The notes under the pieces were generated by a model. The model was given only the letters and a program-made list of their open reading frames with translations, did not search any database and was not told the DNA's origin. Positions 280 through 21,028 of a stretch of DNA of 64,000 nt are shown here, in pieces. A program made the translations under genes and the position numbers. The DNA is taken from contig JAGCVH010000058.1 of the NCBI GenBank assembly GCA_017962495.1, forward strand, positions 1 to 64,000, read 5' to 3'. The stretch is from Bacteroidaceae bacterium (GTDB lineage Bacteria; Bacteroidota; Bacteroidia; Bacteroidales; Bacteroidaceae). Position 1 is the first letter of the stretch. Every line of letters begins with the position of its first letter.

Positions 280-337
280 CTAATTTTACACTCGATAAAT
301 GCTATATAAACCATTAAACCATAAAAACATACGCATT

Positions 338-1963: not shown

Positions 1964-1974
1964 GGACGAAACAT

Positions 1975-2010
1975 GAGAGCAATGCCAAGTTAGCTTGGAG
2001 CATTGCTCTC
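1975..2010 (+). terminator. Hairpin after pruA, probable terminator
   Basis: GAGAGCAATGC (1975-1985) and GCATTGCTCTC (2000-2010) form a perfect 11-bp stem, extended inward by CAAG/CTTG. There is no clean T-run, so it could act as a 3'-end stabiliser instead. Confidence 0.5.
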
Positions 2011-2061
2011 GTGCTTCTAATGAAGGATTAAGGGTTAAGGATTAATAATTAAAGATTAAGA

Positions 2062-4351: not shown

Positions 4352-6559
4352 ATGCAAACTGAAGGCAGAGATTTCAAACGAATGTTCCTCAAGTTCGGCA
4401 GGCAGTCAGGACTGGTAATCATCATCCTTGCTGCCATCGTTTTGGAGGCTATCTCGGCTTTCCAGTATTACTACACGCGTGGTATGCTGGAGCGCAAACT
4501 GGAGGAACAGATGCTGATTCTGCTTCAGGTGTCGGCGCAGCGTATGGATGGCATCATGCGGGAGACAGCGAGCGCGACATATAACCAATTGTGGCACGCC
4601 CAGCAGCATTTGGACGATGCCGATTATATGGAGACGCTGGTTCGCAATATGGTGATGATTGATGACGACAAGATTGTTGGTGCTGGCGTTGCTTTCCGTC
4701 CTTACTACTTTGCCGACAAAGGCCGATGGTATGAGCCATACGCCCGTCGGGAAGGTGATTCTATTGTTGTACTCCAGATTGGTTCTGCCCAGCACAACTA
4801 TTTTACGCGTGAGTTCTATCAGACTTGCATCAAAGGTGACACTATCAAATGGAGTACGCCCTATGTCGATAATGAGGGAGCAAAAGATACCGTCTCCACT
4901 TATGGCTTGCCTTTACGAGACAAACAGGGGACGCCCATAGGCGTTTTGGGTATTGATGTCTCTACGGAGTGGATAAGAGATATACTGAGGCAAATTCGTC
5001 AGCATCCGTCGAGTTTCAGCATAGTGCTTTCGAATGAAGGCAACTTGATATCCACGCCAGACGATAGCCTTTGCAGCCACGAACTGGCAGAAAAGATTGC
5101 CCTGATGGTCAACGATAGCACGGTGAAGAAGGAGCTGAAGTCCAACGGGCGTGTGACAAGCTTTAAGTTCTACGATGAGGAGAAAGGCCGTGCGGCACGC
5201 GTGTATTATGCCAGAAAGCGTGTAGAACCGAAATGGTGGTTGGTGAAGGTGTGCTATGACGATGAGGCATTTGGCGAACTGCATAAGATGCGAAAGACTA
5301 TTATGTGGATGTCGCTACTTGGTTTGTTTGCATTGGGACTCATCATCCAACTCTTTGCGCGTAACGACCGCAAGATGCAGACGAGTCTGATGAAGCAACA
5401 ACGCATCGACGGCGAACTGAAGATAGCCAAAGACATACAGACGCAGATGTTGCCACGCGAAAGCAGTATCGTACACAACGATGTCAAACTGCATGGTTCG
5501 CAAATTCCTGCACGCGAGGTGGGAGGTGACTTGTATGACTTCTTCATCCGCGACGAAAAACTCTTCTTCTGTATAGGTGATGTGAGTGGAAAAGGCATTC
5601 CTGCCTCTTTCATTATGGCCGTTACGCAATCTTTATTCCATAACATTGCATCGCGTGAGAGTGGTCCAGCTCACATTATGAACCTCCTTAATGCAACGGC
5701 GTGTCGGAATAATGAGTCGAACATGTTTGCTACTTTGTTCATCGGCGTTCTCGACCTGCCGACTGGACATTTGCGCTACTGCAATGCTGGGCATGAAATT
5801 CCGATTCTCTTCGACCAATCGCCGACCACTATCGATGTAAAATCCAACATTCCTATTGGGCTATTCAGCGATTTCAAGTATGAAATGCAGGAGATGGTTA
5901 TGCCATCTGGTTCGACACTTTTCCTCTATACTGACGGATTGACAGAGGCCAGAAATGGTCAGCGAGAGCAGTTTGGGATGGAGCGTGTCAAACAACTGGT
6001 GGCACGCTATGGCACTATGAGTCCGAAGGAGATGATAGACATGACCATCACCGAAGTGGAAAGATTCTCAGAGCATACCGAACAAGGCGACGACCTGACC
6101 CTGCTAGTCATCAACTATACCCCGATGGTGGAGAAAATGTTGCTCGATGAAGAACTGACACTGGCAAACGATGTAAAAGAGGTAACCAAACTGAGCAGTT
6201 TCATCAAGGATGTGATGGCGCGTTTGAACATCGACAAGTCATTGGCATCGAAGTTGCGACTGGCTTTAGAGGAAGCTGTGGTCAATGCGATGGAATATGC
6301 CTATCCGGCTGGTAGTCAGGGCGATGTTAAAGTCCGTGTGACATACGATGAAAAGCGATTAAGGTTCATAATTACCGATTCAGGCATTCCCTTCAATCCC
6401 ACAGAAGCATCAAAAGCTGACACTACACTCTCTGCCGAAGAGCGTCCTGTGGGAGGATTAGGCATCCATCTCATGCGTCAGTTGATGGACTCTGTCAATT
6501 ATGAACGCATCAACAAGAAAAATGTACTGACCCTGACAAAGAACGTAAACGTAGAATAA
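4352..6559 (+). CDS. SpoIIE/RsbU-type PP2C phosphatase with sensor domain and fused RsbW-like ATPase
   Basis: A 735-residue membrane-bound partner-switching regulator. A transmembrane helix (about 19-40) and an extracytoplasmic Cache-like sensor region end at a second helix (about 316-336). A linker (ELKIAKDIQTQMLP) then leads to the SpoIIE-type PP2C phosphatase, with EVGGDLYDFF (D393), GDVSGKG (D410), NAGHE and LYTDGLTEA, closing with GDDLTLL. The C-terminus (about 600-735) is a HATPase_c domain of the RsbW anti-sigma kinase type, with the N-box EEAVVNAMEYA (N645) and GGLGIHLMRQL. Phosphatase and kinase modules in one chain could set the phosphorylation of the STAS protein encoded 23 bp downstream. 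No sigma-B-like factor is present, so the final target is unknown. Confidence 0.9.
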   Translation: MQTEGRDFKRMFLKFGRQSGLVIIILAAIVLEAISAFQYYYTRGMLERKLEEQMLILLQVSAQRMDGIMRETASATYNQLWHAQQHLDDADYMETLVRNMVMIDDDKIVGAGVAFRPYYFADKGRWYEPYARREGDSIVVLQIGSAQHNYFTREFYQTCIKGDTIKWSTPYVDNEGAKDTVSTYGLPLRDKQGTPIGVLGIDVSTEWIRDILRQIRQHPSSFSIVLSNEGNLISTPDDSLCSHELAEKIALMVNDSTVKKELKSNGRVTSFKFYDEEKGRAARVYYARKRVEPKWWLVKVCYDDEAFGELHKMRKTIMWMSLLGLFALGLIIQLFARNDRKMQTSLMKQQRIDGELKIAKDIQTQMLPRESSIVHNDVKLHGSQIPAREVGGDLYDFFIRDEKLFFCIGDVSGKGIPASFIMAVTQSLFHNIASRESGPAHIMNLLNATACRNNESNMFATLFIGVLDLPTGHLRYCNAGHEIPILFDQSPTTIDVKSNIPIGLFSDFKYEMQEMVMPSGSTLFLYTDGLTEARNGQREQFGMERVKQLVARYGTMSPKEMIDMTITEVERFSEHTEQGDDLTLLVINYTPMVEKMLLDEELTLANDVKEVTKLSSFIKDVMARLNIDKSLASKLRLALEEAVVNAMEYAYPAGSQGDVKVRVTYDEKRLRFIITDSGIPFNPTEASKADTTLSAEERPVGGLGIHLMRQLMDSVNYERINKKNVLTLTKNVNVE

Positions 6560-6582
6560 TCAACAAATAAATATAGATAAAC

Positions 6583-6885
6583 ATGAAGACTACTATTCAA
6601 GAATTAGCGGACAAGTACCTTGTTACCTTCGAGGGAGAACTCGATACGACTGCCGCCACTGAGGTAAATGAGAAACTGCAACCGCTCTACACAGCCAACG
6701 GCAAGGGTGTGGTTATCGATTGTACGAAACTGGAGTATATCGCGTCAAGTGGTCTGCGTATCCTCATAAGCATACTGAAGGGTGCTAAGAGTGGTGGAAG
6801 TCAGGTAGTGCTCAAAAACCTGAACGACGACATCAAGGATGTGTTTAAGTTGACGGGATTCATCAACCTTTTTGATATCGAATAG
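6583..6885 (+). CDS. STAS-domain anti-sigma-factor antagonist (SpoIIAA/RsbV type)
   Basis: A 100-residue single STAS domain. The phosphorylation site region reads YIASSGLRIL, with serines at 55 and 56 at the position that kinase-type anti-sigma factors phosphorylate in SpoIIAA and RsbV. It lies between the phosphatase/kinase gene (23 bp gap) and the porin gene (5 bp gap). This strongly suggests it is the substrate of the upstream protein. It acts in the cytoplasm by switching partners; the partner is not identifiable here. Confidence 0.9.
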   Translation: MKTTIQELADKYLVTFEGELDTTAATEVNEKLQPLYTANGKGVVIDCTKLEYIASSGLRILISILKGAKSGGSQVVLKNLNDDIKDVFKLTGFINLFDIE

Positions 6886-6890
6886 TTCCC

Positions 6891-8243
6891 ATGAAGCCCT
6901 CTGTCGTTTATCTCCGAATACTTGCTACTGCGGGATTGCTGTTACTGGCTACTGCTGCCAATTGCCAAAATGAGGAAAAGAAGAACCTTTTCTCTTTGGA
7001 TTTGCACATGATGACGCGTGGAGAAATCCGTGATGGAGGAGTGGTGTCTTCGGAAGAAGAAGCGGGGGATGACAAATCGAGTTTCGTACTCGGTCGTGAG
7101 AGGTTGATTGTCGGTTACGAAAACCTGCGTCTAAACAAAGATTCGTTAGCAACAACACCATGGTTGCAGATGAGCCTAAACGTACAGCATCAGGGCGTAT
7201 GGGGACAGTCGGGCAAAGGCGTTTTTAATGTCCATGAAGGATGGGCAAGACTCACGGCAAATAACGGCCTTTTCGCACAAGTTGGTCGGCAGGTACTCGC
7301 CTACGATGACGAGCGCATTATTGGTCCTAATGATTGGTCGATGGCAGGAATCTCGCACGATGCCCTAAAACTTGGTTATGAGGGACATGGTCACAAAGCA
7401 CATGCCATATTCTCCTACAACCAAAATGCCGAGAACATGAATGGCGGTACTTATTATATGAATGGTGCTCAGCCTTATAAGACGATGCAGACCGTGTGGT
7501 ATCATTACGACATTCCTAAGATTCCGTTAGGTGCTTCGTTATTGTTCATGAACATCGGTATGCAAGGTGGAGAGAAAGGTGAGGACGAACGGACGGAATG
7601 GCAGCAACTCATTGGTGGATACGTGAAATACACCGATAAAATCTGGTCGTTGGAAGGTTCTTATTATCGCCAGATGGGCAACGATGAAGGCGGCACCAAG
7701 ATTAAGGCATGGATGGCCAGCGTGAGGGGTCAGGTGAGTCCGAGTCGTTACTTCGGTTTTGAAGCAGGCTACGACTATCTGAGTGGTGACGAGAAATTTG
7801 CCGTTCCCGCAAAGGGTGACATCGGCCTGATCAAGCACGATGTCATCAAAGGCTTTAACCCCGTCTATGGTTCTCACCACAAGTTTTATGGGGCTATGGA
7901 CTTCTTTTATGTGAGCACATATGTCAACGGCTTCACTCCAGGTCTGCAAAATGCTTTTGTCGGTGCATATGCAAAACCCGTTAAGGGATTGAAGATTGGA
8001 GTGGGTTACCATTATCTCGCCATGAGTACCAAGTTAATCGACATGGATAAAAAACTTGGACACGAATTTGAGTTGAGTGCCTCCTATCAAATCATCAAAG
8101 AGGTCAATGTGTCCGCTGGTTTTTCTTATATGACAGGCACAGACACAATGGAACGACTGAAACGTGCCTCTAACGATGGAAACTTGAAATGGGGATGGAT
8201 TTCTTTGAACATCACCCCTAGAATATTTTCCGTCAAATGGTAA
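6891..8243 (+). CDS. Alginate-export-like outer-membrane beta-barrel protein
   Basis: A 450-residue predicted outer-membrane barrel with a signal peptide (MKPSVVYLRILATAGLLLL...). The segment GRQVLAYDDERIIGPNDW and the following alternating-polarity strands match the Alginate_exp (AlgE-like) domain as I know it, and the protein ends with strand-like hydrophobic alternation (ISLNITPRIFSVKW). The natural cargo is unknown; many Bacteroidetes members are not linked to alginate. It starts 5 bp after the STAS gene, so it is co-transcribed with the partner-switch pair. It ends 54 bp before the NRPS gene with no clear terminator between, so transport of the NRPS product or its precursors is possible but unproven. 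Confidence 0.75.
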   Translation: MKPSVVYLRILATAGLLLLATAANCQNEEKKNLFSLDLHMMTRGEIRDGGVVSSEEEAGDDKSSFVLGRERLIVGYENLRLNKDSLATTPWLQMSLNVQHQGVWGQSGKGVFNVHEGWARLTANNGLFAQVGRQVLAYDDERIIGPNDWSMAGISHDALKLGYEGHGHKAHAIFSYNQNAENMNGGTYYMNGAQPYKTMQTVWYHYDIPKIPLGASLLFMNIGMQGGEKGEDERTEWQQLIGGYVKYTDKIWSLEGSYYRQMGNDEGGTKIKAWMASVRGQVSPSRYFGFEAGYDYLSGDEKFAVPAKGDIGLIKHDVIKGFNPVYGSHHKFYGAMDFFYVSTYVNGFTPGLQNAFVGAYAKPVKGLKIGVGYHYLAMSTKLIDMDKKLGHEFELSASYQIIKEVNVSAGFSYMTGTDTMERLKRASNDGNLKWGWISLNITPRIFSVKW

Positions 8244-8297
8244 CCAACTTGTGGTTGCTTAACTATTACAGAACAACAATATCCCCCTTAATTAATT

Positions 8298-11200
8298 ATG
8301 AAAACTACAGCACCTTTATCGAGAGAACAATACGGCCTTTATGTCGAGTGTGTAGAACACAACGGAGAGCCTTGTTACAATATACCTTATTTATATGTTT
8401 TAGACGGTTCGCTCGATGGTGAACAATTATGTCGTGCTATCGAAACTGTGGTAAAAGCACATCCTACGCTATTTACCCGCATCGAAGTGAATGCTGATGG
8501 TGAGCCGATACAGACTATTGATGATGGTGAGACATTCACTTTGACTGTAGATGACGTGACAAATGTGGAGCAAGTAAAGGCACAATTTGTTCAGCCTTTC
8601 GACATTCACAAAGACCGATTGTTCCGTTTCCGCCTTCTGAGAGACGAGGCACACTACTACCTGTTTCAAGATATCCACCACATCATTAGTGACGGAGCGA
8701 CACGCAAGGTGTTGTTGGCAGATATCGAAAAGGCCTATGGGGGTGAGGCGATTACACTTGAGGAACTGACTTTAGGCGAAGTGGCTGAAGCCGAGGCTAA
8801 TGCCAGAAAGACTCCTGCCTTTGAGGAGGCAAAGTCGTGGTATGCCCAGAATTTTGATTGTAGTGATACCTTCAGTCCTCTCTTGCCCGATATGGAGGAA
8901 ACTGAACCAAAGGAGGGACTGAAGACAAGAATAATGAATGTTGATGTCGAGCAGGTAGAAGGCTTTTGCAAAACGCATGGTATATTCAAAAGCACTTTCT
9001 TTACTGCTGCATATAGTTTTCTGTTAGCGAAGTTTAATAATGAACACGAGGCCCTCTTTAATACCATCCATAACGGGCGTTCTGATAAGCGGCTGGCGCA
9101 CTCAGTAGCTATGCTGGTGAAGACATTACCAGTCTATTCGAAGTTTACGGATGATACCACTATACTCGATTTCTTGAATGCTGAACAAGAGCAGATGACT
9201 GGTTGCCGTCAGCACGAGGCTTACGCATACGCGGACGTAGTGACAGATTTGAATATTCAGCCCGCAACTCTTTTTGCTTGGCATGGTACTTTGTTCGATA
9301 ATTTGGAGTTTTGCGGGAAGCCGATGACGGCACAAAGACTGAATAATAACACCCGTGAGGTTCCTATTTACTTGAAGGCCTATTTGCGCGATGGCCACTT
9401 CTGTGTTGAAGCAGAATACAGCGCCAATGCGTATAGCGAGTCACTCATTAGTCAGTACTTGGAGAGTTACGAGGCAATCGTAGAGGGATTTGTCAGTAAG
9501 GAATACCTGCGGGATGTGGATATTACCACACCATCACAGATAGAGAAGCTTGACCAATTCAACCAGACAGATGTCGATTACGATAATACGCAAACCATCA
9601 TATCGTTGTTTGACAAGCAAGCAATAACTACTCCCGATGCCATAGCTGTGGTGTATAAGGACAGGCGATACACCTATAAAGAGGTGGATGAAATAAGTAA
9701 TCGTATAGCCACTCATATTGCATCGATGGGGTTAGTTGAAGAGGATGTAGTATCCGTATTGATTCCCCGTTGTGAGTGGATGGCTATTGCCTCACTTGGC
9801 GTATTAAAGGCGGGTTGTGCTTATCAACCCCTTGACCCCAGCTATCCCAAAGAGCGTCTGAACTTCATGATGCAGGATTCAAGTGCCAAGTTACTGATAG
9901 CTGACGAAGAACTGCGTGATATCGTGGATGAGTATAAGGGTGATGTTTTGTTGACGAAAGATATTCCAAGCCTTCCAGCGTCTTCAAATCTTCCAGATGT
10001 TACAGTTACCCCTGCCAGCCTCTTCATCCTTCTCTACACTTCTGGTTCTACGGGTGTACCTAAAGGATGCCAGTTGACACATGGCAATCTGGTGGCTTTC
10101 TGTCATTGGTATCAGCGATTCTATAGCCTGAAGCCGGAACATAATGTTGCTGCATACGCCAGCTATGGATTTGACGCTTGCATGATGGACATGTATCCTG
10201 CTCTTACCTGCGGGGCAACCGTTTACATTATTCCAGAGGAGCTGCGCCTTGACTTGATAGCCCTGAACGAATACTTTGAGGCGAACAGTATCACTCACTC
10301 GTTCATGACCACGCAAGTGGGTTTCCAGTTTGCTTCTAGTATAGAGAACCACTCGTTGCTATATCTTTCTACTGGTGGTGAGAAACTAGCGTCTTTGACT
10401 CCTCCTACGAACTACAAGTTCTATAATGTTTATGGACCTACGGAGTGTACTATTTTCACAACTACTTATTTGGTGGATAGAAAGTTGAAGGATATTCCCA
10501 TTGGTAGTCCGCTCGACAATATGTGTCTCTATATTGTAGATGCTCAGGGCCATCGTCTGCCAATTGGTGCTTCAGGAGAACTATGGGTTAGTGGTCCACA
10601 AGTAAGCCGTGGCTATCTGAACCGTCCTGAAAAGACTGCAGAAGTGTATATTGGCAATCCGTTTGCAACTGATAAGAAATACGCTCGTGTTTATCGTACA
10701 GGCGATATTGTTCGTTATTTGCCAGATGGTAACATTCAGTTTGTAGGTCGTCGTGATGGACAGGTGAAGATTCGTGGTTTCCGCATCGAACTGAAAGAGG
10801 TGGAGGCTGTTATCCGTGATTTCCCAGGAATTAAGGATGCTACGGTTCAGGCTTTCGATGAAGAGGGTGGTGGCAAGTTTATAGCTGCATATATAGTTAG
10901 CGACCAGCAGATAGATATCGAGGCACTCAATAATTTCATTCTCGACCAAAAGCCTCCTTATATGGTGCCTGCTGTGACGATGCAGATAGAAAACATTCCA
11001 CTTAACCAGAATCAGAAAGTAAACAAAAAGGCACTTCCGAAGCCTGAAAAGAAAGCTACTGCAATAGAAGAAAGTAATGTGCCAATGAATGTGCTTGAGA
11101 AGGAGTTACATGACATGGTGGCAGGTATCGTTGGTAATCAAGACTTTGGTATTACAACAGTTCTTGGTTATGCAGGCTTGACTTCTATTTCAGCTATTAA

Positions 11201-14200
11201 GTTAGCCGTACAGGTAAACAAACGCTTTGGAGTAACTGTCGATTCAAGGGCTTTGGTAAAGAATGGTAGCATTCAGTCCATAGAGAATGAGATACTTGGT
11301 TCGATGCTCAATGGGCAAATGGCTGTGGATAATGGAAAGTCAAAAGGGCAATCGACAAATGATAATGAAAAAGCTCAATTGGTAAGTGTTCCACTATCAT
11401 ATGCCCAAACAGGTGTCTATTTTGAGTGTTTGAAGAATCCCACCTCCACCATCTATAACATTCCTTATCTGTTGTCTTATCCAGAAGGAACTGATGCAGG
11501 TCGACTTGCAGAGGCTGTCAAGCAAGTGGTGGCTTGTCATCCAGAGTTGAGTGCGCACTTCATGACCGAAGGGGACCAAATTGTGCAGACAATTGATGCT
11601 GACGTATTGCCCAACATTCCCATCAACGAAATGACGGAAGAGTCATTATTCACCTATAAGAATGAGTTCGTGCAACCTTTCAACCTGCAGCGTCCACCAC
11701 TTTACCGTTTTGAAGTGGTGAAGACAGAGTATGGTGTCCACCTTTTGATGGATGTCCATCACCTTGTGTTCGATGGAGGCTCCGCAGATATCTTTATTCG
11801 CCAGATTTGTGCTGTTCTTGAAGGTTCCTCGGTGGAGAAAGAGGGCTATACCTATATTGATTTCGTAAGTGATCAGCAGTTGGCTGAGGATGGTGATGCG
11901 TTCCGCTCTTCTCAACAATTCTTTGCCGAAAAGCTTCAGACCTGTGAGGGAGCAAGCGAGATTCCTGCCGACTTACCCAAGACCGACAGACAAGGTCTTA
12001 TTGGTGAGGCTGTGGTTCGGGCAGATCATGACAAGGTTTCGGCATTCTGTCGTCAGCAGGAGATTACCCCTGCACATTTATTCTTAGCTGCTACGGCTTA
12101 TGTCGTATCTCGATATACAAACAATAGGGAAGTTTATCTTAGTACGGTGAGCAGTGGACGATCGAACTTAAAGATAGCTGATACGGTGGGTATGTTTGTC
12201 AATACCTTAGCCTTAGGGCTGAACATTGACGACATAACGGTCAAGGACTTTTTGCAGAAAACTTCTGAGACTTTCGATGAGACTCTGCGTCACGAGGACT
12301 ATCCGTTTGCTCGTATCGCTACAGACTATGGTTTCCTTCCCTCCATCGCCTTTGCTTATCAAGTTGGAGTTTTATCCGAATATACGATTGGAGGCAAGGC
12401 TATTCGTCAAGAATTGTTGGAACTGAATGTGCCGAAGTTCAAAATCAACATTAAGATAGAGACGCGCGGTGTTGTTGTGCAATACGATGACTCTCTCTAT
12501 TCTGAACGTGTGGGCAATGCATTGGCAGAGAGCATTGTCGCAGTCACGGAACTAATGATGGCACAACCACAAGCCAAAGTACGCAAGATTTCTATCGTCA
12601 GCAAGAATCAGGAAGAGGAGTTAAGTCACCTGCGTCAAACTGCTACGGGAGATGCTCCGTTTAAGTTCTTCCACGAGTGCATCAGTCATTATGCTCAAAC
12701 ACAACCTGAGCATGAGGCACTGGTGGCTATAGATGCCAGCTTTACTTATAAAGAGATGGATGATGTCACCAATTGCATTGCGGCAAATTTGCGTAATAGG
12801 GGAGTAAAGGAACATGACCGCGTGGCTTTGCTGTTGCCTCGCACAAGTCGCCTCATTCTATCCCTCTTCGGTGTTCTTAAAGCTGGAGCTGCCTATATCC
12901 CTTGCGATCCTGAATATCCTGCCGACCGCATTAAACTTATACTCGAAGACAGCGAGGCTCGTTACATTATTACTACTACCGACCGACTTGATAGTGTGCC
13001 AGCTGAAAAAGCTATCGACGTAGAAGAGCTAATGCAAGTCCTAAGTTCAGAGAATGTTCAATGCTCCATCACCCCTGATGCCCTTGCATACCTCATCTAC
13101 ACCTCTGGCTCTACTGGACGTCCGAAAGGCGTAATGCTCCGTCACGAAGGCATCTGTAATTACCTTTATGGTCATCCTGCTAATGTTTTTGCCAATGGAG
13201 TGTTGACCGACGCAGACCGCATCATTAGTGTTACCACCATTTCATTCGATGCTGCTTTGCAAGATATAGGTATGGCGTTTTACAACGGCAAGACATTAAT
13301 TGTTGCAACGGAGGAGCAAGCTAATAATCCTCTCGATCTGGCACAACTCATCAATGAACAGCACATCAACATGGTGAGCGGTACGCCTTCGCGCTGGCAG
13401 ACTTGGCTTACTAGTGAAGATTTCTGTCAAGCTATCAGTCATGTTAAGATTTGTCGTGCCGGTGGTGAGAAATTCTCCGACCAGTTGCTGGAACAAATGC
13501 GTGATGTTACAAAAGCTCGCATATTCAACTGCTATGGGCCGACTGAGATTACCGTAGCGTCGAACAATAAGGAACTTACTCATGCCGACCTTGTGACGGT
13601 AGGTAAACCGCAACTGAACGTGATAGAGTTTATTGTTGATGCCGATGGTAACGAGTTGCCTGTAGGTGTTGTAGGCGAACTATATATTGGCGGGCGTGGT
13701 GTTGCTCGTGGTTACAACAATCTTGATGAGATGACTCGCGAGCGCTTTATTGAATATCATGGTGAACGCATCTATAAGTCGGGTGATTATGCAAAATGGT
13801 TACCGGATGGTGATGTAGTCATTCTTGGACGCACAGACCATCAGATTAAGCTGCGTGGCTTGCGAATCGAATTGGGCGAGATTGAGAATGTTATGCTGAA
13901 AGTGAATGGTATGAAAAAGGTGGTTATCCTTATCCGCAAATTAAACGGGAAGGAACACCTTTGTGCTTACTATACCGCTGACCATGAAATAGCGCCTGAA
14001 GACTTGAAAGCGGAGATTTCGAAGAGCTTGACTCAATATATGGTGCCTACTGCTTACTTGCAACTGAAAGAAATGCCGATGACGCCCAACGGTAAGACTG
14101 ATGTCAAAGCCTTGCCCGAGCCACAGCTTGCCATTACTTCTGCATATGTGGAACCATCCAATGAAACAGAAAAAGCGTTTTGTGACATTTTTGCCAATAT

Positions 14201-15578
14201 CTTGCAAATGGACCAAGTGGGTGCTACCGACAACTTCTTCGAACTGGGTGGCACTTCGCTCGTTGTGACACGTGTCATCATCGAGGCAGACAAGGCTGGG
14301 TTGCATGTGGCTTATGGTGATGTGTTCGCGAATCCGACACCTCGAAAACTGGCTACGCTTATCACAGGAACTGATGGAGAATCGTTAGGAGAATCTTCCG
14401 ATCCCGTTGCCAACTATGACTATAGTGCTATTAACAATTTATTGCGAAGCAACACACTTGATAACTTCCGTCATGGCGAGCGTCGCTCATTGGGCAATGT
14501 ATTGCTGACAGGTGCCACTGGTTATTTGGGCATTCACATCTTGCGTGAGCTGATAGATTCAGATGCCGGAAATATCTATTGTCTGGTGCGTGGCAAAACG
14601 CAGGAAAAAGCCGAGAATCGTCTGCGCACTTTACTTTTCTACTATTTTGCTGATGCATTTAAGGAGCTCTTTGGAACACGCATCCATGTGATTCTTGGTG
14701 ATGTGACCGGTGAGTTTGGTGATGGATTGCAGATAGACACCGTATTCAATTGTGCAGCTGTGGTTAAACACTTCTCTGAAGGTACAGAGATAGAGGATGT
14801 GAACATTGGTGGCGCACAACGATGTGTTGACTTTTGCCTCAAAACGAAAGCCACTCTTGTACATGTTTCTACAGCCAGTACTAGAGGTATGTGGGTAGGA
14901 GAGGTTAAGGACGAGACTTTCACAGAACAACGATTGTACATGGGGCAATATTTGGGTAATAAGTACATCTATTCAAAGTTTATGGCGGAACGACTCATTC
15001 TCGATGCCATTGCCATGCATGGTCTCAATGCCAAAATCATGCGAGTAGGTAATCTTTCTGCTCGCTCAACCGATGGTGAGTTCCAGGCTAACTTCTCCAC
15101 CAATTCCTTCATGGGACGCATCAAGGTTTATAATATGCTTGGGTGTTGTCCTTACAGCATGCGCAACAAACGAGTCGAGTTCTCGCCCATTAACGAGGTG
15201 AGCCATGCTATCGTATTGCTTGCCACCACTCCAAAGGATTGTACAGTGTTCCATCCATATAACATTCATGGACAGTTCCTTGGAGATGTCCTCTTGGGAT
15301 TGACTACTGTAGGTAAAGGGATTCGTTTCGTGGAGCAGGAGGATTTCCAACAAGCAATGAACGAGGCCTCAAATGACCCACAGAAGGCGAAGACCTTATC
15401 AAGTATGCTTGCCTATCAGGATATGGCACATGGGCAGAAGACTGCCGACGTTCAGCGTGACAATGACTACACAACGCAGGTCCTCTATCGCCTTGGCTTC
15501 TCATTCTCACCCACTTCTTGGGACTATGTAGAGCGTATGCTCAATGCTATAGGTGGATTCGGATTCTTTGAAAATTAA
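8298..15578 (+). CDS. Two-module non-ribosomal peptide synthetase with terminal reductase (C-A-T-C-A-T-R)
   Basis: A 2426-residue multidomain NRPS. Module 1: condensation domain (about 1-430; active site HHIISDG, 127-133); adenylation (about 433-915; YTSGSTGVPKG near 578, YGPTE near 711); carrier domain with Ser963 in AGLTSISAI. Module 2: condensation (about 1010-1435; HHLVFDG, 1154-1160); adenylation (about 1454-1950; YTSGSTGRPKG near 1598); carrier with Ser1987 in LGGTSL. The end is a thioester reductase of the NAD-binding_4 type: TGATGYLG (2071-2078) and YIYSK (Y2223, K2227). There is no thioesterase. Reductive release should yield a dipeptide aldehyde, its alcohol, or a cyclised pyrazinone-type product. 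The intact first condensation domain suggests an N-acyl starter. Known gut clusters of this architecture make peptide aldehydes or pyrazinones. The exporter and PPTase genes follow directly. Confidence 0.93.
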   Translation: MKTTAPLSREQYGLYVECVEHNGEPCYNIPYLYVLDGSLDGEQLCRAIETVVKAHPTLFTRIEVNADGEPIQTIDDGETFTLTVDDVTNVEQVKAQFVQPFDIHKDRLFRFRLLRDEAHYYLFQDIHHIISDGATRKVLLADIEKAYGGEAITLEELTLGEVAEAEANARKTPAFEEAKSWYAQNFDCSDTFSPLLPDMEETEPKEGLKTRIMNVDVEQVEGFCKTHGIFKSTFFTAAYSFLLAKFNNEHEALFNTIHNGRSDKRLAHSVAMLVKTLPVYSKFTDDTTILDFLNAEQEQMTGCRQHEAYAYADVVTDLNIQPATLFAWHGTLFDNLEFCGKPMTAQRLNNNTREVPIYLKAYLRDGHFCVEAEYSANAYSESLISQYLESYEAIVEGFVSKEYLRDVDITTPSQIEKLDQFNQTDVDYDNTQTIISLFDKQAITTPDAIAVVYKDRRYTYKEVDEISNRIATHIASMGLVEEDVVSVLIPRCEWMAIASLGVLKAGCAYQPLDPSYPKERLNFMMQDSSAKLLIADEELRDIVDEYKGDVLLTKDIPSLPASSNLPDVTVTPASLFILLYTSGSTGVPKGCQLTHGNLVAFCHWYQRFYSLKPEHNVAAYASYGFDACMMDMYPALTCGATVYIIPEELRLDLIALNEYFEANSITHSFMTTQVGFQFASSIENHSLLYLSTGGEKLASLTPPTNYKFYNVYGPTECTIFTTTYLVDRKLKDIPIGSPLDNMCLYIVDAQGHRLPIGASGELWVSGPQVSRGYLNRPEKTAEVYIGNPFATDKKYARVYRTGDIVRYLPDGNIQFVGRRDGQVKIRGFRIELKEVEAVIRDFPGIKDATVQAFDEEGGGKFIAAYIVSDQQIDIEALNNFILDQKPPYMVPAVTMQIENIPLNQNQKVNKKALPKPEKKATAIEESNVPMNVLEKELHDMVAGIVGNQDFGITTVLGYAGLTSISAIKLAVQVNKRFGVTVDSRALVKNGSIQSIENEILGSMLNGQMAVDNGKSKGQSTNDNEKAQLVSVPLSYAQTGVYFECLKNPTSTIYNIPYLLSYPEGTDAGRLAEAVKQVVACHPELSAHFMTEGDQIVQTIDADVLPNIPINEMTEESLFTYKNEFVQPFNLQRPPLYRFEVVKTEYGVHLLMDVHHLVFDGGSADIFIRQICAVLEGSSVEKEGYTYIDFVSDQQLAEDGDAFRSSQQFFAEKLQTCEGASEIPADLPKTDRQGLIGEAVVRADHDKVSAFCRQQEITPAHLFLAATAYVVSRYTNNREVYLSTVSSGRSNLKIADTVGMFVNTLALGLNIDDITVKDFLQKTSETFDETLRHEDYPFARIATDYGFLPSIAFAYQVGVLSEYTIGGKAIRQELLELNVPKFKINIKIETRGVVVQYDDSLYSERVGNALAESIVAVTELMMAQPQAKVRKISIVSKNQEEELSHLRQTATGDAPFKFFHECISHYAQTQPEHEALVAIDASFTYKEMDDVTNCIAANLRNRGVKEHDRVALLLPRTSRLILSLFGVLKAGAAYIPCDPEYPADRIKLILEDSEARYIITTTDRLDSVPAEKAIDVEELMQVLSSENVQCSITPDALAYLIYTSGSTGRPKGVMLRHEGICNYLYGHPANVFANGVLTDADRIISVTTISFDAALQDIGMAFYNGKTLIVATEEQANNPLDLAQLINEQHINMVSGTPSRWQTWLTSEDFCQAISHVKICRAGGEKFSDQLLEQMRDVTKARIFNCYGPTEITVASNNKELTHADLVTVGKPQLNVIEFIVDADGNELPVGVVGELYIGGRGVARGYNNLDEMTRERFIEYHGERIYKSGDYAKWLPDGDVVILGRTDHQIKLRGLRIELGEIENVMLKVNGMKKVVILIRKLNGKEHLCAYYTADHEIAPEDLKAEISKSLTQYMVPTAYLQLKEMPMTPNGKTDVKALPEPQLAITSAYVEPSNETEKAFCDIFANILQMDQVGATDNFFELGGTSLVVTRVIIEADKAGLHVAYGDVFANPTPRKLATLITGTDGESLGESSDPVANYDYSAINNLLRSNTLDNFRHGERRSLGNVLLTGATGYLGIHILRELIDSDAGNIYCLVRGKTQEKAENRLRTLLFYYFADAFKELFGTRIHVILGDVTGEFGDGLQIDTVFNCAAVVKHFSEGTEIEDVNIGGAQRCVDFCLKTKATLVHVSTASTRGMWVGEVKDETFTEQRLYMGQYLGNKYIYSKFMAERLILDAIAMHGLNAKIMRVGNLSARSTDGEFQANFSTNSFMGRIKVYNMLGCCPYSMRNKRVEFSPINEVSHAIVLLATTPKDCTVFHPYNIHGQFLGDVLLGLTTVGKGIRFVEQEDFQQAMNEASNDPQKAKTLSSMLAYQDMAHGQKTADVQRDNDYTTQVLYRLGFSFSPTSWDYVERMLNAIGGFGFFEN

Positions 15579-15609
15579 CATGGGAGGATAGTATTGCCTC
15601 GGGAAGAGA

Positions 15610-16932
15610 ATGGATAATATCAACAAGCAATTCTATAACTACTTATGGGCCTATGTCCTGGTGGCGCTCTCAGGATGTTTAGGCAATGTGGTGGATGGTA
15701 TTATTGTGGGTAACCTCATTAGTGCTGACGGCGTGAGTGCCATTAGTTTGTCGAAGCCTGTCAACCAGTTTATCTTTACCCTCCATCTGCTCATCAATGC
15801 TGGTGCGGGTATGCTGGTAGGTTATGCTTTGGGACAGAAAAACATCAACGATGCTCGGCGCTTTTTCTCTATCTCCTTGTCGTTGAGTGTTGGACTTGGG
15901 GTGTTGCTTGCTCTATTTTGTGGCGTATTCTTTCTTGATGAAACCACACGTTTGTTGTGCAACAACGAGCAGATACTTCCATTGGCCCGTGACTATATGC
16001 AAGTATTGTTGCTTGGCAATCCGGCTTTTATCCTGATGTGGGGACTTTCTACGATGGTTGGAGTCGATGGGCAACCAAGATTAGTTTCCCTTGCCGTTAT
16101 CATAGACAATGCGTTGAATCTTTTTTTAGACATTGTTTTTATCCAATGGCTCGATTGGGGAATCACAGGCTCATCTGCGGCTACTGTGGTTGGTCATCTT
16201 GTGGGCATTGCTATTTTATTGAGTCATTGGTGGAAGCCAGAGCATCGTAGGTTGAAGTACATTGGTATTTCATGTGAATCAGGGGGGATTATTGCCAGGA
16301 TTGTATCTCAAGGAGCCCCCCTTGCTGTTGCCTCCATCAGTCTCACACTATTGTTGCTTTCAGCAAATAGGATTGTACTTTCAACTTTAGGACAGACAGG
16401 TATTTTTGCTTTTGCTGTTTGTATGAACCTCTTGCAGGTTTATAATCTCTTCCTCTCTGGTACTTGTCAAACCTTGCAGTCATTGGGTGCAATACAAGTG
16501 GGAAAACACGATGCCGAAGGCTTGAATGTGGTGCTGCGTAAGGCTTTCCGTTTCATCACCATAGCAATGGCTATCACTTGCTTATTTGTTTGGATAGATC
16601 CTCAGGCCATTGCCGCCTTGTTTGGGGCCAATAATCCTGATTATATTGTGGAAACCGACAATGCCCTGCGCATATTTGCCATCAGTTTCATTCCATTCTG
16701 CTACATTTACACGCTGATGGTTGTATATAAGCTATATGGGTATCACAAAATGGCTCTATTCATCTCCTTAGCCCTTTCGTTAACGGTTATTCCAGTCCTT
16801 TGGGGTGTAGCTCATACGGTTCCTAATTATCTTTGGTACAGCTACTTGATAGCCTACATTATAGAGGCTCTACTCATCGTTCTCTTCCACCGTATTGGAC
16901 ATGTTAAATTCGAGTTGAAGGCAAAGGAATAG
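15610..16932 (+). CDS. MATE-family efflux transporter
   Basis: A 440-residue inner-membrane protein with about 12 hydrophobic helices and MATE features (GNVVDGIIVGNLI near the N-terminus, then a second repeat). MATE proteins export small organic molecules using H+ or Na+ gradients. The gene starts 31 bp after the NRPS stop, and its stop codon shares a base with the GTG start of the PPTase gene, so the three genes form a tight operon. The likely role is export of, or self-protection from, the NRPS product; this is inferred from position only. Confidence 0.88.
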   Translation: MDNINKQFYNYLWAYVLVALSGCLGNVVDGIIVGNLISADGVSAISLSKPVNQFIFTLHLLINAGAGMLVGYALGQKNINDARRFFSISLSLSVGLGVLLALFCGVFFLDETTRLLCNNEQILPLARDYMQVLLLGNPAFILMWGLSTMVGVDGQPRLVSLAVIIDNALNLFLDIVFIQWLDWGITGSSAATVVGHLVGIAILLSHWWKPEHRRLKYIGISCESGGIIARIVSQGAPLAVASISLTLLLLSANRIVLSTLGQTGIFAFAVCMNLLQVYNLFLSGTCQTLQSLGAIQVGKHDAEGLNVVLRKAFRFITIAMAITCLFVWIDPQAIAALFGANNPDYIVETDNALRIFAISFIPFCYIYTLMVVYKLYGYHKMALFISLALSLTVIPVLWGVAHTVPNYLWYSYLIAYIIEALLIVLFHRIGHVKFELKAKE

Positions 16933-17513
16933 TGGTTTATTTGAATGACCATATAGAAGACATAAACGTATCGGAGGCCTTACTGAAAGTCAGTAAACAG
17001 CGAGCTGAATATGCCCTTCGCTATCGACAAGTCCTAGATCAACGGCTTTCCCTTGCCGCCGTTCTGCTACTTGCGGAAGGGTTGAAGAGAGAATATGGGA
17101 TTAGGGAATTGCCAGAATTCATTTACCGCCCTCATGGGAAGCCTGAACTAAGAGGTCATTCGGATATTCATTTCAATATGAGCCATTGCAAACGGGCAGC
17201 CCTATGCGTTATAGATAATGTCCCAGTTGGTTGCGATGTTGAGTGCGTCCCCAAGGAATTGGATATGGATGTTTGTCGATATTGTTTCAATGAAAGTGAA
17301 ATTACAGACATTTTAGGTTCTGATGCCCCAACGCTAACTTTTACAATACTTTGGACTAAGAAAGAGGCTTTTTTAAAGTTGACAGGCGACGGTTTGACAA
17401 ACGATTTGCCCAAGTTACTCTTTAGCCCTCAGGTGCGGGATGTCACCTTTCAGACTCACGTTGCATCGGACAAATCGTATGTTTATACCATCTGCAGGTG
17501 GATTGATATATAA
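16932..17513 (+). CDS. 4'-phosphopantetheinyl transferase (Sfp type)
   Basis: Transfers the phosphopantetheine arm of CoA to carrier-domain serines. The 193-residue protein has the family motifs: FNMSHCKRAALC, then VGCDVECV with the Mg-binding aspartate, and WTKKEAFLKLTGDGL. Length is at the short end of the Sfp-type range. Translation should start at the GTG that overlaps the MATE stop (TAGTG); no upstream ATG is available. As the last gene of the NRPS operon it most likely activates Ser963 and Ser1987 of the synthetase. Confidence 0.92.
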   Translation: MVYLNDHIEDINVSEALLKVSKQRAEYALRYRQVLDQRLSLAAVLLLAEGLKREYGIRELPEFIYRPHGKPELRGHSDIHFNMSHCKRAALCVIDNVPVGCDVECVPKELDMDVCRYCFNESEITDILGSDAPTLTFTILWTKKEAFLKLTGDGLTNDLPKLLFSPQVRDVTFQTHVASDKSYVYTICRWIDI

Positions 17514-17682: not shown

Positions 17683-20085
17683 ATGTCACAATTCAGCATC
17701 AAACACCCCGAAAGCATGGGTGGCATGAACGAACGTATAAAGCGATTGCGCCAAGAAAGTATGGAAACCCCAACCACACTCTCCATCGAGCGTGCGCTTA
17801 TCGAAACTGCTTTTTATAAGCAGCACTATGGTACGATGCCCATTGCCGTATTGCGAGCCAAGAACTTCTATGAGATATGTAAGAAGAAGACTATTTACAT
17901 AGGAAGTGACGAATTGATCGTGGGCGAACGAGGTCCCGTCCCCAAGGCAGTACCCACTTTTCCAGAACTGACTTGTCACTCGGTAGAGGACTTACATACT
18001 CTTGATACACGTGAATTGCAATCGTATCATATCTCACAACAAGATATTGACACCTATGAGCAAGAGGTAATTCCCTATTGGAAGGGTAAGACCCAACGTG
18101 AGCGCATTTTTAATCACGTCAGCAAGGAATGGGAAGAGGCTTATCATGCAGGCGTATTTACGGAGTTCATGGAACAGCGTGCCGCAGGGCATACGGCTAT
18201 GGACGGCAAGATGTACCGCATCGGCTTGCTCGACTTGAAAGCGCGTATAGAGAAACGCATTAGTGAGTTGGATTACATCTACGACCCCGAGGCCACCGAC
18301 AAACAACAAGAGTTGGAGGCAATGGCTATTTCGTGTGATGCGGCTATCCTCTTTGCAGAGCGTCATGCGGAACTTGCTGAGCAAATGGCAAAGACGGAGA
18401 CCAATCCACAGCGTAAACGCGAGCTGGAGAAGATTGCCGATGTATGTCATCATGTGCCTGCTCATGCTCCTCGCGATTTATGGGAGGCCATCCAGATGTA
18501 TTGGTTTGTTCATCTGGGAACGGTAACTGAACTGAATGGTTGGGATTCTATGAACCCCGGACACATCGACCAGCATCTGTTTCCCTTCTACCAAAAAGGC
18601 ATTGAGGACGGGACGCTCACCCGTGAGCAGGCAAAGGAACTCATTTCATGTCTTTGGATTAAGTTCAACAACCAACCGGCTCCGCCCAAAGTGGGTGTAA
18701 CGGCATTGGAATCAGGAACGTACAACGACTTTACGAACATTAATATCGGAGGAGTTGATCGCGAAGGTAGGAGTGCTGCCAACGATATATCCTTCATGAT
18801 ACTTGAGATTCAAGAAGAGTTGCACGAACTGCAACCAGGTCTCTCCATCCATATAGCCGAGCAGACTCCCGACGAATTCCTGCTGGCAGGCATTCGTGTT
18901 ATTCGTCAGGGTCACGGCTATCCCTCTGTCTTCAATCCAGACACTTATGTTCGTGAAATGACTCGGGCGGGTAAGACGCTTGAGGATGCTCGCGAAGGCG
19001 GTTGTTCGGGTTGTATTGAGGTTGGAGCCTTTGGTAAGGAGGCCTATCTGCTTACGGGTTATCTGAACACACCAAAGATTCTGGAGATTACACTCAATAA
19101 TGGCATCGACCCGGAAACAGGCAAGAAACTTGGTTTGGAAACAGGTTCCCCTTGCGAGTTTAAGTCATTCGAGGAACTCTATGAGGCTTGGCATCGGCAG
19201 ATGGTATCCTTTGTCAACCTGAAGTTATCGGTCAACAACTACATCGAACGCATGTTCTCACTCTATGCCCCTGCCACATTCCTTAGTCTCTTCATCGACG
19301 ACTGCATTGACAAAGGTAAGGATTACTATAGCGGCGGAGCACGATACAATACCACTTACATCCAATGTACGGGACTTGGAACTATTACCGACTGCTTCAC
19401 TACACTAAAGAAACATGTCTTTGAGGATAAGCGTTATACGATGGAGCAAATCCTTAATGCCTGCAAGGACAATTGGGAGAACGAGGAGGTAATGCGCCAA
19501 TACATCCGTAACCATACACCTTTCTTTGGAAACGATGACGAGTATGCTGATGCCATAGCCGTTCGTGTATATGAAGACTTGGTTAAGGCCATAGAAGGTC
19601 GACCCAATACGCGAGGAGGGGAGACTCACCTGAATATGCTCTCCACGACTTGTCACAATTACTTTGGTTCGGTATGTGGAGCAACACCAAACGGCAGGTT
19701 CGCCTACTTTGCCATTAGCGATGGGACGTCTCCTTCTCATGGTAGTGACACACATGGACCTACGGCTGTTATCAAGTCACTTGGTAAGCTCGACCAAACG
19801 AAATCAGGAGGAACTCTGCTGAACGTGCGTTTTGTGCCTGCTTTGCTTAAGCGTGAGGAGGACATGAAGAAACTTGGAAACCTCATTCGTACTTACTTTA
19901 AGTTTGGTGGACATCATATCCAATTCAATATCGTTGATACAGCAACCCTGCTCGATGCACAGCAACATCCAGACCAGTATCGTGACTTGCTTGTGCGCGT
20001 TGCAGGATATAGCGATTATTTCAATGATATGACAGAGCAATTGCAAAACGAAATCATCGCTCGAACGGAGAATGAGGACCTTTAA
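17683..20085 (+). CDS. hypD: Glycyl radical enzyme, trans-4-hydroxy-L-proline dehydratase (HypD-like)
   Basis: An 800-residue oxygen-sensitive glycyl radical enzyme. HypD dehydrates trans-4-hydroxy-L-proline to pyrroline-5-carboxylate. The active-site loop reads GGCSGCIEVG, with the thiyl cysteine Cys444 and catalytic Glu446, as in the SGCVE motif of Clostridioides difficile HypD. The glycyl radical site is Gly775 in RVAGYSD. From memory, other segments also match HypD rather than pyruvate formate-lyase or glycerol dehydratase: FTEFMEQRAAGHT, TELNGWD, KFNNQPAPPKVG, GKEAYLLTGY. The activating enzyme is encoded 43 bp downstream. No P5C reductase (proC) is adjacent, unlike many hypD loci; pruA lies 16 kb upstream instead. 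Substrate assignment is by motif and remains unproven. Confidence 0.85.
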   Translation: MSQFSIKHPESMGGMNERIKRLRQESMETPTTLSIERALIETAFYKQHYGTMPIAVLRAKNFYEICKKKTIYIGSDELIVGERGPVPKAVPTFPELTCHSVEDLHTLDTRELQSYHISQQDIDTYEQEVIPYWKGKTQRERIFNHVSKEWEEAYHAGVFTEFMEQRAAGHTAMDGKMYRIGLLDLKARIEKRISELDYIYDPEATDKQQELEAMAISCDAAILFAERHAELAEQMAKTETNPQRKRELEKIADVCHHVPAHAPRDLWEAIQMYWFVHLGTVTELNGWDSMNPGHIDQHLFPFYQKGIEDGTLTREQAKELISCLWIKFNNQPAPPKVGVTALESGTYNDFTNINIGGVDREGRSAANDISFMILEIQEELHELQPGLSIHIAEQTPDEFLLAGIRVIRQGHGYPSVFNPDTYVREMTRAGKTLEDAREGGCSGCIEVGAFGKEAYLLTGYLNTPKILEITLNNGIDPETGKKLGLETGSPCEFKSFEELYEAWHRQMVSFVNLKLSVNNYIERMFSLYAPATFLSLFIDDCIDKGKDYYSGGARYNTTYIQCTGLGTITDCFTTLKKHVFEDKRYTMEQILNACKDNWENEEVMRQYIRNHTPFFGNDDEYADAIAVRVYEDLVKAIEGRPNTRGGETHLNMLSTTCHNYFGSVCGATPNGRFAYFAISDGTSPSHGSDTHGPTAVIKSLGKLDQTKSGGTLLNVRFVPALLKREEDMKKLGNLIRTYFKFGGHHIQFNIVDTATLLDAQQHPDQYRDLLVRVAGYSDYFNDMTEQLQNEIIARTENEDL

Positions 20086-20128
20086 GCAACGCTTTTAGAC
20101 ACTCACGCTCGACAGGATTAAATTATCT

Positions 20129-21028
20129 ATGCGTCTTCGTATCTTTGACATCAAACGCTATGCCATCCACGATGGGCCAGGCATTCGGACGACCATATTC
20201 CTAAAGGGTTGTCCGCTCAGATGTGTGTGGTGTCACAATCCCGAATCATGGAGTCTGCAATCGGAAAAGATTTACAGACAGCAAAGATGCATAGGTTGTG
20301 GTTCATGTGTGGAGGCGTGTCCCAATAAGGCCTTAGGGCTTACGGCGGAAGGCCTAAGGCTTACGGGCATCGAATGCAGGCGTTGTGGCAAGTGTGCCGA
20401 GGCTTGTCCTTCCAAGGCCTTAGAGATGTGTGGAAGCGAGTGGGAACTCGACGATTTGCTGGCAGAAGTTGAGAAGGAACGAGACGTAATGACCATTGGC
20501 GAAGGAGGGGTCACTCTCTGTGGAGGAGAACCGCTTATGCACGACATCGTGCCTTTGTTACAAGAGCTTGGCCTAAGGGGTTTTCATCGTGTGGTAGATA
20601 CTTCTCTTTACGCGTCCGAGCAAGTGGTTCGTCGTGTGGCAGAGGAGTGCGAATTGTTCCTCGTTGATATAAAGCTGATGGACAATGAGAAGCATCGCCA
20701 ATATACGGGCGTTTCCAACCAAATCATCCTTGACAATATCCGTTTGCTTGCCCGTATGGGTAAGCCCTTCCTTGTGCGTATTCCCCTTATAGAAGGCGTT
20801 AACGCCGATGAGGACAATATTGATGCTACGGCACGCTTCCTTGCCGAATTACCCATGAAAGTGATGGTGGAGCTTTTGCCTTACCACGATGTGGGCAAGG
20901 ATAAGCATCGCAGGCTTTGGAGTCAATATAATCCTGATAACTATACAATGGATAAACCCGATGAAAACACAATTCAGCGATGCATCGGGCAATTTTCGCA
21001 GTACGGCATTGAAGCACGCGAAGGTTAA
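20129..21028 (+). CDS. hypE: Glycyl radical enzyme activase (radical SAM, HypE-like)
   Basis: A 299-residue activating enzyme that uses S-adenosylmethionine and a 4Fe-4S cluster to generate the glycyl radical on its partner. The radical-SAM motif is C28-x3-C32-x2-C35 (GCPLRCVWC). An insert of two ferredoxin-type clusters follows (CIGCGSCVEAC and CRRCGKCAEAC), as usual for activases of non-PFL glycyl radical enzymes. It sits directly after hypD. Between the two ferredoxin motifs the DNA (20327-20370) is a 22-bp duplication resembling intergenic repeats elsewhere in this window, yet the frame and protein length look normal. The 3' end overlaps the convergent dnaG by 4 bp. Confidence 0.9.
   Translation: MRLRIFDIKRYAIHDGPGIRTTIFLKGCPLRCVWCHNPESWSLQSEKIYRQQRCIGCGSCVEACPNKALGLTAEGLRLTGIECRRCGKCAEACPSKALEMCGSEWELDDLLAEVEKERDVMTIGEGGVTLCGGEPLMHDIVPLLQELGLRGFHRVVDTSLYASEQVVRRVAEECELFLVDIKLMDNEKHRQYTGVSNQIILDNIRLLARMGKPFLVRIPLIEGVNADEDNIDATARFLAELPMKVMVELLPYHDVGKDKHRRLWSQYNPDNYTMDKPDENTIQRCIGQFSQYGIEAREG
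20327..20370 (+). repeat. 22-bp duplication inside hypE
   Basis: Two adjacent units start AAGGCCTTAGGGCTTACG and AAGGCCTAAGGCTTACGG, 22 bp apart. They encode the linker between the two ferredoxin clusters. The sequence resembles the intergenic arrays near 26867 and 45518, including a following ATCGAA. Confidence 0.6.

Follow-up and report, generated by a model that had tools for sequence, protein, structure and literature searches.

The window analysed here, a stretch of 64,000 nucleotides (positions 1 to 64,000 of contig JAGCVH010000058.1, assembly GCA_017962495.1, forward strand) from a Prevotella-like gut bacterium of the Bacteroidaceae, carries a nonribosomal peptide synthetase (NRPS) that lies within a co-oriented set of six genes at 4352-17513 (Table 1). 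On balance we think that this unit probably makes and exports an N-acyl-dipeptide aldehyde under the control of an external signal, and the predicted product is perhaps a protease inhibitor. The NRPS has the domain order condensation (C), adenylation (A), carrier (T), C, A, T, thioester reductase (R), and is followed by a MATE-family exporter and an Sfp-type phosphopantetheinyl transferase (PPTase). Upstream lie a membrane fusion protein with Cache, PP2C (SpoIIE-type) and HATPase domains, a STAS-only protein and a porin-like protein. An earlier note on this DNA had taken the NRPS, MATE and PPTase genes to be the whole cluster; all three are present, and the upstream half (4352-8243, three genes) had been overlooked. 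The gaps from the fusion through the STAS and porin genes to the NRPS are 23, 5 and 54 bases, the PPTase start overlaps the MATE stop by one base, and the set is probably an operon.

The relatives of the synthetase argue that these genes belong together. At least 588 relatives were confirmed in the genome collection, and the best 80, picked by likeness to the query, are referred to as named relatives or named loci. Counting only loci with enough flank and requiring position, the SpoIIE fusion occupies its expected site in 62 of 71 named loci, the STAS gene in 68 of 74, the MATE gene in 60 of 73 and the porin gene in 56 of 73; the four are all in place in 46 of the 66 loci testable for all of them. 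The PPTase was rejected as a core gene, as only 29 of the 68 named loci that could be tested have it close to the NRPS and a second PPTase domain is encoded elsewhere in the host's own genome. Counts at any position (SpoIIE 65, MATE 64, porin 60, STAS 52 and PPTase 25 of 80 loci) differ from these, since they ignore position and leave out overlapping frames. Some of the misses are explained by rearrangements: MATE lies between porin and NRPS in L060, and the porin follows MATE in L068. Outside the unit, the commonest flanking gene family occurs in 10 of the 80 loci. Ruminant or RUG names, the latter presumably denoting rumen metagenome-assembled genomes, are borne by 59 of the 80 named relatives, while the other 21 (16 SRR, 4 UBA, 1 HAN) show no host; goats, sheep and deer are among the sources of relatives carrying such a unit.

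A second sample covered 399 genomes of the host's GTDB family, with loci picked by a match to the R domain and not by full-length likeness. The R domain matched at E<=1e-30 in 56 of these genomes (12 of 30 genera), at E<=1e-100 in 44, and at E<=1e-30 in 18 of the 207 with a completeness of 90% or more and a contamination of 5% or less. The 61 matches fall in 59 stretches, the window included, and a locus was testable where at least 9.5 kb lay 5' of R. SpoIIE and STAS genes were both present in 13 of 15 testable loci with at least 70% R identity, in 7 of 8 at 58-70%, in 6 of 10 at 40-58% and in none of 8 below 40%. The testable loci with neither gene are L146; L124; L126, L162, L164 and L166; and L168 and L171-L177. 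Among the 18 stretches too short to count, seven have one or both genes (1/5, 1/3, 4/7 and 1/3, by descending identity). The two samples overlap in the genomes of L003 (= G078), L006, L031 and L044.

Within the host's genus we compared 13 genomes with the R domain and 20 listed without it. A close STAS protein (at least 56% identity) occurs in 12 of the 13 and in 1 of the 20. In that one genome, G271, the STAS gene shares a 5358-base contig with SpoIIE and porin genes; the contig stops some 420 bases beyond the porin frame, at the point where the NRPS would be expected to start. The sole R-positive genome without a close STAS, G152, encodes one of 37-38% identity beside its NRPS. Across the order, the R domain matched at E<=1e-100 in 2 of 295 genomes, the host's own and one of another family; set against 44 of 399 in the family, this suggests that reductase synthetases of this kind are largely one family's feature within the order. 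The switch genes may be a wider companion of NRPSs in that family. The earlier note had thought a Prevotella-like host an unusual producer, a view contradicted by the 56 R-positive family genomes, by the relatives numbering at least 588 and by the 934 Bacteroidaceae NRPS clusters counted by antiSMASH in a rumen survey (PMC8241843).

In a Pfam scan of the NRPS-MATE-PPTase stretch, Condensation (twice), AMP-binding (twice), PP-binding (twice), NAD_binding_4, MatE and ACPS scored over cut-off. The NRPS has HHIISDG at residue 127, HHLVFDG at 1154, carrier serines at 963 (GLTS) and 1987 (GGTS), GATGYLG at 2072 and YIYSK at 2223, and both A domains retain their lysines. The seven-domain NRPS at 8298-15578 with its active sites, the reductase ending (NAD_binding_4, GATGYLG and a Thr/Tyr/Lys triad) and the adjoining MATE and PPTase reading frames were thus found as the earlier note had described them, and a search for the loss of an active-site residue that it had named as refuting (HHxxxDG, carrier serines, YxxxK) found none lost. 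Conservation and code counts were made on the best-matching frame per locus in the window and the 80 named relatives; no placement over C2-A2 was possible for L067, L070, L073, L078 and L081, which were left out, so that the denominator there is 76 and not 81. By alignment, His128 and Asp132 of C1 are retained in 79 of 79 placed sequences (the first His of the motif in 78, the Gly in 77), and the Thr2192/Tyr2223/Lys2227 triad of R in 78 of 78. Against the nearest relative, L003, the ratio of nonsynonymous to synonymous substitution rates (dN/dS) is 0.049 for the NRPS, 0.012-0.097 for its domains (0.097 for C1), 0.043 for MATE and 0.043-0.089 across the six tested genes of the unit; the low values indicate purifying selection on all six.

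With regard to release, the aureusimine synthetase (AusA) model NF047350 is the best NCBIfam model both for the whole NRPS and for R alone. The R domain scores 193.9 bits with it, 60.2 with the myxochelin (MxcG) model and 153 with the general thioester reductase model TIGR01746 (below its cut-off of 213). Because the AusA model outscores the MxcG model, release as an aldehyde is favoured and a dipeptide aldehyde is our best guess for the product. The host's own genome (85% complete) has two condensation domains only, both in this NRPS, so that C1 has no known NRPS module ahead of it from which to receive a substrate. As C1 stands first, lacks a known feeding module and has a conserved catalytic motif, the simplest reading is that it would accept an acyl group. 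In 7 of the 80 named loci the next gene after the NRPS encodes about 450 aa, and in six of the seven MATE comes after it (L041 is the exception); the one scanned, from L016, resembles a stand-alone AMP-binding ligase (25.7 bits, cut-off 29.9).

The A1 code starts with DAMFSG in 64 of 79 placed sequences, and A2 reads DAQ(S/W)RGCVAK in 62 of 76, the window included. Anchoring on the following TPS favours S at A2 residue 278, and an Arg at position 299 tentatively suggests an acidic or polar second residue. Other A2 codes in the named loci are DAH(S/W)RG(T/S)VSK (7/76), DMK.MGTVSK (4/76) and, once each, DAEGTGVDDK, DGV.MGCVEK and a truncated code. Six named loci (L023, L046, L058, L059, L070 and L074) have two full synthetases within one stretch; all five readable second copies have the A2 code DAEGTGVDDK, an apparently acidic pocket into which a basic residue would fit. 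Module swaps in L023, L046, L059 and L070 were considered and rejected, the frame compared there being the second, tandem synthetase. Shorter reductase NRPSs of about 1460 aa that align to C2-A2-T2-R lie directly after the main one in L117 (11805-16202) and L143 (5069-9436). In aldehyde protease inhibitors the aldehyde residue, here the second one, sets the target class. A family of inhibitors with differing P1 residues across the relatives would be a reasonable hypothesis, and is not a result.

The upstream fusion has transmembrane segments at residues 19-37 and 317-335 on either side of a Cache-like region (about 103-241), followed by a SpoIIE-type PP2C domain (401-588) and an RsbW-like HATPase (605-730). 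It scores 177 bits with PF07228, 104 with PF13581 and 67.5 with PF22673; dCache_1 reaches 31.3 bits, below cut-off, and by eye no clear dCache_1AA amino-acid motif was seen in the Cache region. All 26 aligned sequences, comprising the window and 25 relatives sampled at intervals from 60 candidate frames, share without variation the PP2C motifs GGD391-393, GDVSGKG409-415, TDG527-529 and DD580-581 and the kinase N-box residues EE640-641 and N645. With the STAS protein, whose candidate phospho-serine is Ser55 or Ser56 in ASSG (54-57), the partner-switch set is complete: PP2C motifs, an RsbW-like N-box and a candidate phosphorylatable serine.

In the best-known partner switches the kinase holds a sigma factor. 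No sigma-factor or DNA-binding gene recurs beside the unit among flanking families found in at least 4 of the 80 named loci, these families being named by likeness to window genes or by eye; nor does the host's own genome, at 85% complete, have a SigB/F/G-type sigma factor over cut-off (best 110.9 vs 234.35 bits). On these two grounds the STAS protein itself could be proposed to gate the pathway post-translationally, with the PP2C and kinase activities, driven by the Cache domain, switching it between binding and releasing the synthetase or the exporter; we regard this as unlikely. If true, it would amount to a phosphorylation-gated nonribosomal peptide line across a family whose synthetases differ in the A2 pocket, which would pick the residue deciding which proteases an aldehyde hits. 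A weak sigma-factor-like match (TIGR02980, 25.6 bits, below cut-off) lies at 51575-51700 of the window. Related switch genes in the same genome stand by other possible outputs, namely an AraC-type helix-turn-helix (HTH) gene and, with the STAS gene following it, a CitMHS gene. In L114 (7528-10688), which belongs to the window's genome, the SpoIIE-STAS pair is followed by the AraC-type HTH gene, and in L115 (5041-7170) and L123 (7829-12162) a STAS gene lies beside a CitMHS-type transporter with a TrkA_C domain, the one in L123 being preceded by a SpoIIE gene. SpoIIE and STAS genes, in some cases together with MATE, were also seen in more distant NRPS clusters of the bacterial family, those of L118, L120, L122, L127, L128 and L132.

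Among the remaining genes, the porin is the weakest assignment in the unit, made by profile only: its score with PF13372 (Alginate_exp), 25.2 bits, is exactly the cut-off. The best NCBIfam model for the PPTase is NF047349 (AusB), at 67.5 bits and below the equivalog cut-off of 225; the PPTase translation contains GCDVE and WTKKEA, which correspond to PPTase motifs.

Taken together, the families suggest the following route. The PPTase would arm both carrier domains. A1 would select a hydrophobic amino acid, which C1 would acylate from a donor that is probably an acyl-CoA or acyl-ACP. C2 would then add a second residue chosen by A2, for which the pocket Arg hints weakly at an acidic or polar side chain, and the AusA-like R domain would reduce the thioester with NAD(P)H and free an N-acyl-dipeptide aldehyde. 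Export would proceed over the inner membrane by MATE and then, perhaps, over the outer membrane by the porin. The Cache domain would read a signal outside the inner membrane and, through it, PP2C and the HATPase kinase would act in opposition on the serine of the STAS protein; the domains and the linkage of this partner switch are observed, and its gating of the unit is the presumed action. The aldehyde would most likely act by reversibly inhibiting serine or cysteine proteases, whether those of neighbours, of protozoa or of the host.

Several observations weigh against this reading. The whole NRPS scores 1168.6 bits with the AusA model, far under the equivalog cut-off of 2500, and alcohols are also possible products of R domains. 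The A-domain codes were read by alignment, without a trained predictor, and two alignments differ, S vs W, at A2 residue 278. The operon is proposed from spacing and strand only, 17 of the 73 testable named loci lack the porin at its position, and the PPTase is not near the NRPS in 39 of 68. In the second sample the SpoIIE/STAS pair is missing in L146 and L124, L150 has a STAS match alone, and four of the ten testable loci at 40-58% R identity have neither gene. Conversely, L132, at 36% R identity and with an upstream stretch too short to count, has the pair, and the distant group is therefore not wholly without it. Finally, in the same-genus comparison SpoIIE occurs in 13 of 13 genomes with R and in 13 of 20 without it (three of the latter weak), which means that the SpoIIE domain alone is not specific.

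Four other explanations were weighed. Chance adjacency of the STAS and PP2C genes to the NRPS could appeal to the presence of such genes elsewhere in the genome (the pair beside the AraC-type HTH gene, a STAS gene beside the CitMHS transporter); we gave it next to no probability. By our arithmetic from 3 SpoIIE genes in 2.95 Mb, it would be expected at about 1-2% per locus, while among testable named loci the STAS gene holds its position in 68 of 74 and the SpoIIE gene in 62 of 71; in the second sample both accompany 13 of 15 close relatives and none of the 8 testable distant ones. A chance linkage can be taken as refuted already. The most plausible of the four, still doubtful, is that the aldehyde serves in signalling or self-regulation through the Cache domain and not as a protease inhibitor, as a membrane sensor is encoded right beside synthesis and export genes. 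Against this, PMC10039858 describes compounds of the dipeptide aldehyde class as potent inhibitors of proteases.

The other two concern the product. The earlier note had pointed to known gut clusters of this architecture that make dipeptide aldehydes or pyrazinones; the first kind of product is supported by the R domain's kinship to AusA-type aldehyde NRPSs (193.9 bits), and the second looks less likely than an N-acylated aldehyde, because C1 has kept its motif and would cap the amine, and an acylated amine should not cyclise. A pyrazinone would follow if C1 were inert and the enzyme AusA-like, the free-amine dipeptide aldehyde cyclising and oxidising. AusA is indeed the best profile for the whole NRPS and for R, and, in the parts of the sources available, gut aldehydes of such a type were isolated as pyrazinone by-products (PMC12327764) and rumen dimodular NRPSs, found in 13 of 981 genomes, are described as pyrazinone makers (PMC9540692). 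Against this stand C1 His128 and Asp132, present in 79 of 79 placed sequences, and a dN/dS of 0.097 by which selection on C1 is not relaxed; AusA is not known to have a leading C domain. We therefore consider an inert C1 improbable. A peptide alcohol, formed if R performed a four-electron reduction as some NRPS R domains do, seems slightly less probable still: the MxcG model also matches R, but weakly (60.2 bits vs 193.9 for AusA). The N-acyl-dipeptide aldehyde remains the preferred product.

Compared with known systems, the NRPS and PPTase are like AusA/AusB of Staphylococcus aureus (aureusimine/phevalin) in having two modules that end in R and in their best NCBIfam models, and unlike them in the extra N-terminal C domain, in scores below both equivalog cut-offs and in the MATE, porin and Cache-PP2C-HATPase/STAS genes alongside. 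The ruminopeptin cluster reportedly has the C-A-T-C-A-T-R order and its product an N-acyl group, and the gut dipeptide-aldehyde clusters are said to have been reported by Guo (2017) and by Schneider and Balskus (2018; ruminopeptin). Judged by partial descriptions, the unit resembles those clusters, including that for ruminopeptin in Ruminococcus bromii, in using a short NRPS for dipeptide aldehydes, and the N-acyl-dipeptide aldehyde (ruminopeptin-type) clusters in its leading C domain, here with an intact HHxxxDG; it differs in its Bacteroidales host, partner-switch genes and porin. RsbU-RsbW-RsbV switches share the PP2C and HATPase motifs and the STAS serine, whereas here a Cache-like sensor lies between two membrane spans and no sigma or DNA-binding gene recurs. 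Fused partner-switch forms include HsbR/HsbA and CrsR/CrsA; a search for these in a review of STAS proteins (PMC8256260) gave no match.

In the sources consulted, each available in part, the gut bacteria linked to reactive dipeptide aldehydes are Firmicutes: one clan is all Blautia (PMC10039858) and one aldehyde comes from Ruminococcus bromii (PMC12327764). Here a related enzyme is found in Bacteroidaceae, within a conserved, sensor-linked export unit whose closest relatives come mostly from ruminants. Two rumen NRPS surveys deal with the same host family or habitat (PMC8241843 and PMC9540692), and their accessible parts do not describe this gene set, switch or product; that of PMC9540692 mentions SpoIIE solely as a general dCache_1 partner. 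A Bacteroidetes genome-mining study reports few clusters in Bacteroidia, as far as its available text goes (PMC9248904). Searches of the open-access literature listed no account of a STAS/PP2C-linked NRPS in Bacteroidales. The dipeptide-aldehyde idea is already known from gut Firmicutes and, going by the open-access literature, the switch-linked unit appears to be new. Its switch genes offer a handle on the inducing signal of a cluster that is possibly silent in culture. In the rumen, protein breakdown bears on nitrogen loss and on feed efficiency. According to PMC8241843, less efficient steers showed higher expression of Prevotella clusters that include NRPS ones, and this cluster may or may not be one of them.

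Table 1. Features of the unit and its downstream neighbours (positions in the window)
Feature	Position	Strand	Size or residues	Details
Membrane Cache-PP2C-HATPase fusion	4352..6559	+	735 aa	Pfam and hydropathy
STAS-only protein (RsbV-like)	6583..6885	+	100 aa	PF01740, 59 bits
Porin-like outer-membrane protein	6891..8243	+	450 aa	signal-peptide-like N-terminus, aromatic C-terminus
NRPS, C-A-T-C-A-T-R	8298..15578	+	2426 aa	single intact open reading frame
C1, N-terminal condensation	8298..9572	+	aa 1-425	HHIISDG
A1	9600..11072	+	aa 435-925	code DAMFSGVIFK, hydrophobic pocket; aligned to LgrA
T1	11100..11297	+	aa 935-1000	Ser963, kept in 76/76 placed
C2	11370..12632	+	aa 1025-1445	HHLVFDG, kept in 76/76 placed
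A2	12660..14132	+	aa 1455-1945	code DAQSRGCVAK, residue 278 = S or W by alignment
T2	14160..14372	+	aa 1955-2025	Ser1987, kept in 80/80 placed
R, thioester reductase	14475..15575	+	aa 2060-2426	GATGYLG, Thr2192, Tyr2223, Lys2227
MATE-family exporter	15610..16932	+	440 aa	PF01554, 94.6 bits
Sfp-type PPTase	16932..17513	+	193 aa	PF01648, 46.3 bits; GTG start
trans-4-hydroxy-L-proline dehydratase HypD	17683-20085			NF043068, 1141 bits (cut-off 1100)
Radical-SAM activase	after HypD, in 17683-21028			319.9 bits, below cut-off 425

The unit sits in a proline/hydroxyproline neighbourhood, with HypD downstream and, just upstream (299-4339), genes for an L-glutamate gamma-semialdehyde (P5C) dehydrogenase and an M24 Xaa-Pro-type peptidase. 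A proline-related product suggested by the HypD link was considered and rejected: among the 80 named loci only L003 shares HypD and the activase. L064 has an activase-like gene after MATE. In L119, a gene for a beta-lactamase-family (PF00144) serine hydrolase lies inside the NRPS cluster (6772-7854), and the second synthetase of that cluster ends in a thioesterase domain.

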